Assembly (NCBI GenBank): GCA_029778615.1
Contig: JAKOPZ010000123.1
Coordinates: 1-64,000 of the forward strand
Length of the DNA: 64,000 nt
Reading direction: 5' to 3'
Origin: Chloroflexota bacterium
Lineage (GTDB): Bacteria; Chloroflexota; Anaerolineae; UBA4142; SHND01
Shown here in pieces: positions 23,083 to 25,319 of the stretch. Made by a program: the position numbers and the translations under genes. The notes beneath the pieces are model-generated. The model searched no databases and was not told where the DNA came from. It saw only the letters and a list, made by a program, of their open reading frames with translations. Position 1 is the stretch's first letter; every line of letters begins with the position of its first letter.

Positions 23083-23111
23083 TTGACACGAGCGCGCGGG
23101 CATGGTAGGAT
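23083..23111 (+). promoter_or_regulatory. Promoter TTGACA-17-TAGGAT of the T-box operon
   Basis: A consensus -35 TTGACA (23083-23088) is 17 bp from TAGGAT (23106-23111). Transcription would start near 23118, just ahead of T-box stem I. Confidence 0.75.
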
Positions 23112-23312
23112 TTCCAACACTTGAGTAAGCGTTGCCGAATCAAGTAGCCGCGCGAATTTCTAGCGAGTTGCAGAAAGGTGGAACTGCGACAGTTGGCGCA
23201 AGCGAAAATCCAATTCGGCAGTGATGACACGATGTTCGGGTCATCACAACGCAACTGCGACGAGCAGTTTCGGTTCGCTCCCGTTATCGAGCCATTGAGG
23301 TTGTGACTCGAT

Positions 23313-23386
23313 TGTCATTTCGAGCGCAGTGAGAAATCTCATTACTGGACAAGCAAGATTTCTCGCAACGGCGGCTCGAAATGACA
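23313..23386. repeat. REP-like palindrome inside the T-box leader
   Basis: TGTCATTTCGAGC and GCTCGAAATGACA form the outer stem; GAGAAATCT and AGATTTCTC form an inner one. This matches in style a palindrome family (TGTCATTTCGAGCG... type) widely scattered in unrelated bacteria. It lies between the T-box stem III region and the antiterminator. Confidence 0.85.
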
Positions 23387-23424
23387 ACGCATGGCACAAC
23401 AAACAAAGGTGGCACCGCGAGCGA

Positions 23425-23455
23425 CGCTCGCCCTTTCGAGGGCGGGCGTTTTTGT
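23425..23455 (+). terminator. T-box terminator
   Basis: CGCTCGCCC and GGGCGGGCG form a 9-bp stem (one G-U) around a TTTCGA loop, followed by TTTTT. It directly follows the T-box sequence and competes with the antiterminator. Confidence 0.88.
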
Positions 23456-23485: not shown

Positions 23486-24016
23486 ATGTTACCCGATTAT
23501 CTTGCGCCAGATTTGGAAATCGTCTTTATTGGTCTGAACCCCGGCACATATTCTGACAAAATGGGACACTATTTTGCGCGCTCGACCAATTTGTTTTGGA
23601 CAGCATTGTACGAATCGAAATTGGTCAATGAAAAACTCACACCCCAAGACGACGTTCGCATGAACGAATTTGGGTTCGGACTCACCGACCTTGTCGCGCG
23701 TCCCACGCCGAACATTGACGGGCTCGCGCGCGATGAATTTGTCGCGGGCGGGAAAGTTTTGCGCGCGAAAATTTTAAGGTTTGCGCCGCGCATCGCGTGT
23801 TTTGTCGGCATCACCGGCTTTCGCCACGCGTTTAATCCGCGCGCAGAATTTGGCTCGCAATCCTCCCCCGTGTGGGGGAATACAAAAATTTTCATCGTTC
23901 CGTCCACCAGTCCGCGCAACGCCTATTATCGTCCGCACGTGATTGATTGGTTCAAGAAACTCAAACTCTTGAGCGATGCACTGCGCGATGAAAAATCTGC
24001 AATCTGCAATCTGTAA
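23486..24016 (+). CDS. mug: Mismatch-specific uracil/thymine-DNA glycosylase (Mug family)
   Basis: The 176-residue enzyme has the Mug/TDG motifs FIGLNPGTYS near residue 14 and VPSTSPRNAYYR near 140. These form the base-flipping pocket that removes U or T mispaired with G. The active-site Asn of the GLNPG motif is present. The start ATG has no clear Shine-Dalgarno but follows a small GACGAAT/ATTCGTC hairpin. The last residues (EKSAICNL) and the stop codon are supplied by a 7-bp repeat array at 23994-24041. It lies between the serine T-box and serS, so its expression should follow tRNA-Ser charging, which is odd for a repair gene. Confidence 0.93.
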   Translation: MLPDYLAPDLEIVFIGLNPGTYSDKMGHYFARSTNLFWTALYESKLVNEKLTPQDDVRMNEFGFGLTDLVARPTPNIDGLARDEFVAGGKVLRAKILRFAPRIACFVGITGFRHAFNPRAEFGSQSSPVWGNTKIFIVPSTSPRNAYYRPHVIDWFKKLKLLSDALRDEKSAICNL

Positions 24017-24053: not shown

Positions 24054-25319
24054 ATGAACGACATTCGACTCATCCGCGAAAAACCCGAAGTGATGCGCGA
24101 GGCACTGGCGAAACGCCAAATGGATACCGCGCCCGTTGACCGCATCCTCGCGCTGGATGAAGAACGCCGCGCGAAACTTTCGGAACTGGAAGCGTTGCGC
24201 GCGCAACGCAACAGCGCGTCCAAAGAAATCGGACGCATGAAAGAGCAAGCGCAACGCGAAACTATGAAAGACCAGGTGCGCGTTATCAATATCCAGATTG
24301 ACGCGCTCGACACGCTCGTCGGTGAACTCGACGCGCAATTGCAAGAAGCAATGTACGAACTGCCAAACATCCCCGACGCCGATGTCCCAATTGGCAAAGA
24401 CGACAGTGAAAATGTGGTCATCAAAACGGTTGGCACGCTGCGCGAATTCGCGTTCACACCGCTGCCGCATTACGAACTTGGCACAAAACTCGGCTATCTC
24501 GATTTCGAGCGCGGCGTAAAACTCGCCGGCACACGTTTTTACGTGACGAGCGGACCGCTCGCCAAATTGCAGCGCGGGTTGATTCAATGGCTGCTCGACC
24601 ATCACATCGCGCGCGGCTATCGCGAATTTGGTTTGCCGTTCATGACCAAAGAAGAAATCATGCTCGGCGCGGGGCAACTGCCAAAATTCCGCGAAAATTT
24701 ATATCACGATGTCGAACGCGACGCGTGGTTCGTACCGACGGCGGAAATCCCGCTCACCGGTTTGCACATGAACGACATCTTGAATGGCGACGACCTCCCA
24801 CTGAACTACACCGCGTATACGCCGTGCTTTCGTAAAGAAAATCTCGCGGCAGGCAAAGACACGCGCGGCATCAAACGCGGCTTTCAATTCGACAAAGTGG
24901 AAATGTACAAATACTGCAAACCCGAAGATTCGGAACAGGAATTGCAAAACATGGTCGCGGACATTGAAGACATTCTCGTGCAGTTGCAAATTCCATATCG
25001 CGTCAAAGAACTTTGCACCGGCGACCTCGGCGCGAATTCGACCAAAACGTATGACCTCGAAGTGTGGGCGCCGGGCATTGGCGAATGGCTCGAAGTGTCG
25101 AGTGCGTCCAATGTGCGCGATTTTCAAGCCCGCCGCAGCAATATTCGTTTTCGTCGCGCGCCCGGTGCCAAACCCGAATTCGTTCACACGCTCAACGGTT
25201 CGGGTCTCGGCGTCCCGCGCACCATGATTGCGATTCTGGAAAATTACCAGCAAGAAGATGATTGGATTGAGGTGCCGCAAGTGTTGCGCGAGTATGTAAG
25301 GTTGGACGCCATCAAGTAG
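24054..25319 (+). CDS. serS: Seryl-tRNA synthetase
   Basis: The 421-residue class II synthetase begins MNDIRLIREKPEVMREALAK at 24054 behind CCGGAGGC. An N-terminal antiparallel coiled coil of about 100 residues binds the tRNA-Ser long arm. The catalytic core shows GTRFYV, PTAEIPLTGLHMNDIL, motif 2 with FRKENLAAGKDTRGIKRGFQF and motif 3 GLGVPRTMIAILENYQ. It charges tRNA-Ser with serine. It is the expected target of the upstream serine T-box. The stop codon is immediately followed by a tandem repeat block. Confidence 0.97.
   Translation: MNDIRLIREKPEVMREALAKRQMDTAPVDRILALDEERRAKLSELEALRAQRNSASKEIGRMKEQAQRETMKDQVRVINIQIDALDTLVGELDAQLQEAMYELPNIPDADVPIGKDDSENVVIKTVGTLREFAFTPLPHYELGTKLGYLDFERGVKLAGTRFYVTSGPLAKLQRGLIQWLLDHHIARGYREFGLPFMTKEEIMLGAGQLPKFRENLYHDVERDAWFVPTAEIPLTGLHMNDILNGDDLPLNYTAYTPCFRKENLAAGKDTRGIKRGFQFDKVEMYKYCKPEDSEQELQNMVADIEDILVQLQIPYRVKELCTGDLGANSTKTYDLEVWAPGIGEWLEVSSASNVRDFQARRSNIRFRRAPGAKPEFVHTLNGSGLGVPRTMIAILENYQQEDDWIEVPQVLREYVRLDAIK

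Follow-up and report, generated by a model that had tools for sequence, protein, structure and literature searches.

The leader upstream of the seryl-tRNA synthetase gene serS in the window (the whole 64,000-nucleotide stretch of Chloroflexota DNA analysed here) contains a 74-nucleotide palindrome, raising the question of whether a T-box switch carrying such an insert merely has a longer stem III, or has been changed by it. The original prediction had proposed both possibilities for a 74-bp REP-like palindrome lying between the specifier region and the antiterminator, on the premise that T-box folding leaves little room there. The fold of the segment (z −6.5) and a match to the Rfam model RF00230 confirmed a palindrome of this type at 23313-23386 inside a T-box leader, and the RF00230 alignment located it at the apex of stem III; the premise of little room did not hold, stem III being among the most length-variable parts of these leaders. 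The features of the locus are as follows, with G000 denoting the genome of the window and G003 its closest relative compared.

23083..23111, + strand: promoter-like site TTGACA-17-TAGGAT with an extended −10 (consensus scan)
23123..23438, + strand: serine T-box leader (RF00230, 48.8 bits, E 1.1e-9, whole model 1-219 matched)
23134..23219, + strand: T-box stem I, with the distal loop GGTGGAA at 23177-23183 (RF00230 alignment, sequence)
23209..23211, + strand: specifier codon UCC (Ser) in the context GAAAA-UCC-AAUUCGGC (sequence)
23221..23247, + strand: stem II hairpin GTGATGAC...GTCATCAC, variable
23250..23289, + strand: stem IIA/B pseudoknot region, conserved (94% between G000 and G003)
23297..23305, + strand: purine flank GAG and 5' base of stem III (GTTGTG)
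23313..23386, + strand: REP-like palindromic element, 74 nt, at the stem III apex (fold, genome repeat search, relatives)
23395..23403, + strand: 3' base of stem III (CACAAC) and AAA flank
23405..23421, + strand: T-box sequence AAAGGTGGCACCGCG (RF00230 alignment, sequence)
23423..23454, + strand: intrinsic terminator competing with the antiterminator (terminator scan, leader fold)
23486..24016, + strand: uracil-DNA glycosylase superfamily gene (PF03167, E 4.9e-21), between the T-box and serS
24054..25319, + strand: serS, seryl-tRNA synthetase (PF02403, E 2.2e-25; PF00587, E 2.9e-34)

Judged by the features that sequence can test, the leader is a T-box, and we infer its regulatory role from them. 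It shares with serine transcriptional T-boxes (RF00230) stem I and the specifier UCC, the GGTGGAA distal loop, stem II, the IIA/B pseudoknot, stem III, the UGGC T-box, the terminator and the place upstream of serS. The specifier amino acid, serine, is that of the downstream gene, the specifier context ATCCA is retained in congener leaders, and the promoter-like motif (TTTGACAC...TAGGATT) is also kept in the leaders of G001, G002 and G003. The T-box bulge UGGC occupies 23410-23413 within AAAGGUGGCACCGCG and is expected to pair with the 3' GCCA of tRNA-Ser. A default Rfam scan of the window did not report the T-box because the leader does not reach the curated gathering score of 93 and emerges only at a lenient threshold. 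Unlike the usual serine T-box, this leader holds a 74-nt multicopy genomic repeat in stem III and is separated from serS by a uracil-DNA glycosylase gene. The distance from T-box to serS is 646-732 nt in G000, G003, G001 and G005, into which such an intervening gene fits, and 87-151 nt in G002 and G004, which leaves no room for one; given these distances, serine T-box regulation may extend to a DNA repair gene in some species of the genus.

The segment 23313-23386 is a near-perfect palindrome that folds into a single long hairpin of −33.8 kcal/mol, while shuffled versions reached −15.5 ± 2.8 kcal/mol and none of 200 was as stable; pairing goes one base beyond each end, joining T23312 with A23387. 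Flanked by the stem IIA/B pseudoknot on the 5' side and the antiterminator on the 3' side, it lies in the terminal loop of stem III: RF00230 aligns there as GGUUGUGA..[87]..GCACAACAAA, and the helix GGUUGUGA..GCACAAC encloses the element. In the fold of the whole leader, element bases pair outside the element with a probability of at most 0.001. When the leader was folded in both versions, the element present or removed, as the original prediction had proposed, the terminator was identical and a competing fold appeared each time. The palindrome is thus predicted to prolong stem III while pairing with itself alone. Its possible role as a terminator was rejected, the T tract being absent 3' of the element.

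The element belongs to a dispersed repeat family. BLAST against its own genome returned at least 69 matches with 40 of 241 candidates scored, most of them at 77-86% identity, and the 13-nt element end TGTCATTTCGAGC has 248 exact matches (132+116) in 6.0 Mb, with none for a reversed control. These counts are lower bounds for a family of more than 100 copies, and roughly 200 were used for estimates. The 68 copies examined in detail are 55-117 nt long and consist of two inverted units (here TGTCATTTCGAGCGnAGCGAGAAATCTC) about a short loop; in some, another palindrome is nested within the units, and some form the inner part of larger elements bounded by separate inverted ends and 8-10 bp target repeats. 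Each of the genus's six genomes contains exact copies of the element end (2-248), and so do most genomes of the order; elsewhere in the class the pattern is almost absent. Mapping of empty sites for other copies gave one clean presence/absence site, in a haem-peroxidase-like gene, with flanks too diverged for exact junctions. The literature searched, of which coverage was partial, held no description of this repeat by title or abstract, and none of a T-box invaded by a dispersed repeat.

Several observations on the family stand beside these counts. Composite elements at L058-L117 form at least three families with inverted ends TCAYSTTACGCA, CTAATGTGCAAC and AAGGCAACTGCAAAGTC, all with 8-10 bp target repeats and with a palindrome of the 74-nt type at the centre. 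One copy (L002:1501-1573) lies in frame within a di-haem peroxidase-like protein gene, where it adds about 24 residues (CHFERSEKSQFWLARFLATTARND) with no stop, and four congeners are without it. Another (L057:1779-1851), inside a larger palindromic element with AATGTGCAAC ends, splits a Y1 transposase gene. In G004 many contigs (e.g. L118-L124) start inside one and the same palindromic element with the flank GTTTGCGCGACTTTGTGCCAGCCCTA; this family, which spread recently, seems to fragment the assembly. In a Chloroflexia MAG (L142:5092-5312), a unit copy immediately precedes a TPP riboswitch. Two further MAGs, one Bacteroidales and one Clostridia (L138, L144), contain runs of the unit CGCTCGAAATGACA, and similar repeats are therefore spread over phyla.

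With REP, BIME and REPIN sequences mobilised by RAYT transposases, the element shares an inverted pair of hairpin units, high copy number and dispersal. GTAG or CGTC tags have been named as marks of REP unit ends (PMC3733652). Such a tag is absent from the element's unit ends, which begin TGTCATTTCGA. Among 13 Y1_Tnp loci examined in the genus none is flanked by element units and one is interrupted by a copy, and no intact RAYT-like Y1 transposase was found beside element copies. Lacking both this tag and a RAYT gene bordered by copies, the element is described here as REP-like on its sequence and is not classed as REP or REPIN. An adjacent Y1/RAYT transposase as its driver was likewise rejected, the one adjoining gene being split by the copy. 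Short palindromes free of genes are shared with MITEs and Rickettsia palindromic elements: the composite families A-C have inverted ends and 8-10 bp target repeats, but target duplication is not evident in solo copies, including the one in the T-box, and the in-frame copy inside a protein gene recalls the Rickettsia elements. Possible T-box-like motifs have been mentioned for the BOX elements of Streptococcus pneumoniae (PMC10969869), which are similar as a dispersed repeat linked to a riboswitch-like RNA; in BOX, however, the suggested T-box motif would be part of the repeat, whereas here the repeat entered a genuine T-box.

Comparison of the serS leaders in the genus separated two carriers from four species without the element. 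The leader of G003 (SerS 95% identical) carries the same element in the same place and orientation, while in G001, G005, G002 and G004 (SerS 88-82%) it is absent and stem III is shorter; the distance from pseudoknot to T-box is 120-121 nt in the carriers versus 43-76 nt in the four non-carriers. The base of stem III pairs in six of six species despite differing sequence, with 34 of 36 cells paired (a count that omits one bulged T in G004), versus a mean of 26 and a maximum of 31 of 36 when arms were swapped between species. GAG[AG] on the 5' side and AAA on the 3' side of stem III are kept in all six leaders, the register relative to the 5'-RRRxG ... AA-3' motif being approximate. Between G000 and G003, identity is 80% in stem I, 94% in the pseudoknot and 96% in the antiterminator/terminator, and because of this difference the switch core looks constrained since the insertion. 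The element itself is 82% identical between the two, with fully identical 13-nt ends (26 bases), and the segment between element and antiterminator has diverged (6 of 14 identical). The identical ends may result from selection on the hairpin or from conversion among copies. Scanning 84,980 GTDB genomes, a collection that may omit the window's own genome, for an element end just before a T-box gave 10 matches, one of them a T-box (uncultured Chloroflexi bacterium SRR6670122_bin.22, with a T-box region matching that of G003) and nine in other contexts or by chance. The insertion is known in two species, from one event; both carrier genomes are draft assemblies of many contigs, and the two agree independently.

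Palindromes were also found in stems II and III of other T-boxes. In the serS leaders of G012, G011, G019 and G006, stem III is in each case a dispersed palindrome that is multicopy in its own genome and unrelated to the window's element, while stem III of the G007 serS T-box is not a multicopy repeat in its own genome. When the six other T-box leaders of the window's genome were searched whole, 31 of the 36 non-self matches among those listed were in stem III or directly ahead of the antiterminator (25 of them in the valS-like leader) and five in stem II, with none of these 36 in stem I, pseudoknot or antiterminator; the stem III insert of the valS leader is a multicopy repeat of another family. 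As a control, the serS leaders of G006, G011, G012 and G019 without stem III contained repeats at one place, stem II of G019, the remaining matches being T-box relatives and one weak match. That stem II holds a full-length cousin of the window's element, of about 98 nt (TGTCATTCTGAGCGGAGCGAAGAATCT...) with dozens of copies in G019, and the leader itself (L030) carries two different dispersed palindromes, TGTCATTCTGAGC in stem II and one of the AGTCGAATAGTC type in stem III. Single units of the element superfamily lie in stem II of T-boxes of G001 and G003, with no matches in 500 shuffled leaders. These searches score the best 40 candidates per genome and so show location, not true copy number, and several of the other families are short tandem-like units with weaker matches. 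About seven independent insertion events were counted in stems II or III, which appear as landing pads where palindromes are tolerated.

Combining these results, we favor as the probable explanation that the ancestor shared by this species and G003 acquired a copy of the REP-like repeat in the terminal loop of stem III, where it was tolerated by a switch that still reads tRNA-Ser, with T-box stems II and III in this order repeatedly accepting multicopy palindromes. In the RNA, the palindrome would fold on itself as a long hairpin atop the old stem III, leaving the stem base, the purine flanks and the antiterminator/terminator pair undisturbed, so that the leader could still read tRNA-Ser; the switch therefore probably still works. 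Stem III is required for the discriminator domain, its stem and loop being variable and its flanking purines conserved (PMC7583486), and an insertion there would be accepted if, as we infer, its length is free. By contrast, a copy arriving in stem I, the pseudoknot or the antiterminator should disrupt recognition of the tRNA and be eliminated, and the confinement of palindromes to stems II and III would therefore be explicable by selection alone. Given about 200 copies, an insertion somewhere in the 2.3 kb of T-box leaders is in itself no unlikely outcome, with an estimated probability of 0.08 if insertion is uniform and up to about 0.6 if it is intergenic only. Of the two possibilities raised at the outset, an extended and tolerated stem III is the one supported, in two species, by self-pairing and by the preserved stem base, flanks, antiterminator and terminator.

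The strongest alternative, though unlikely, is that the insert altered the switch, the 74 nt and their stable hairpin delaying RNA polymerase or stabilising the discriminator and thereby shifting the threshold of readthrough on uncharged tRNA-Ser. Stem III is integral to the discriminator that senses aminoacylation, and insertions in it are described as frequent, and possibly functional, in translational T-boxes (PMC7583486). Transcribing a further 74 nt necessarily takes some time before the decision point is reached, making a quantitative effect possible, and 26 terminal bases unchanged while stem I differs by 20% has an estimated chance of about 0.003, suggesting that the hairpin may not decay freely. 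However, identity of the arms could equally be due to conversion from other copies, terminator and competing fold are predicted whether or not the element is present, and, judging from sequence, a short stem III suffices for the congeners.

An element that seeks hairpin loops, with stem III a preferred target rather than a merely tolerated one, is improbable. It was suggested by nested copies, the core also forming the centre of bigger palindromes that have inverted termini themselves (families A-D) and another palindrome being nested in the element's own units; but nested families spread as units and so represent few events, and around 11 independent solo copies the sequences on either side of the junction paired no better than those at random positions, leaving such targeting unsupported there. 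More doubtful still is a decaying, non-functional T-box gathering insertions. Its Rfam score is below gathering and the carriers reach 48.8 and 50.7 bits versus 56.7-72.3 in three of the four non-carriers (33.8 in the fourth), but the two carriers share the specifier, are 94-96% identical in the pseudoknot, T-box and terminator, and retain pairing at the base of stem III. Finally, that the segment is a native stem III lengthened by local mutation with no insertion can be practically dismissed: stem III length is highly variable in this order, but the sequence belongs to a genome-wide family whose copy number excludes a native origin, and, rather than being conserved in all relatives and single in the genome, it is missing from four congeners and the search for other copies that the original prediction had proposed found more than 100.

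This locus offers a natural insertion experiment, together with comparable relatives that lack the insert. A 2020 review noted insertions in every T-box domain and listed their structure and function as an open question, with stem III required yet variable (PMC7583486); several of the T-box insertions described here are dispersed palindromic repeats. Across the order, it is plausible, though we hold it tentatively, that unrelated mobile palindromes routinely make T-box stems II and III, being kept since any hairpin suffices there and supplying lineage-specific insertions, some of which perhaps tune the switch. The tolerated insertion predicts that the length and sequence of stem III beyond its base are free.
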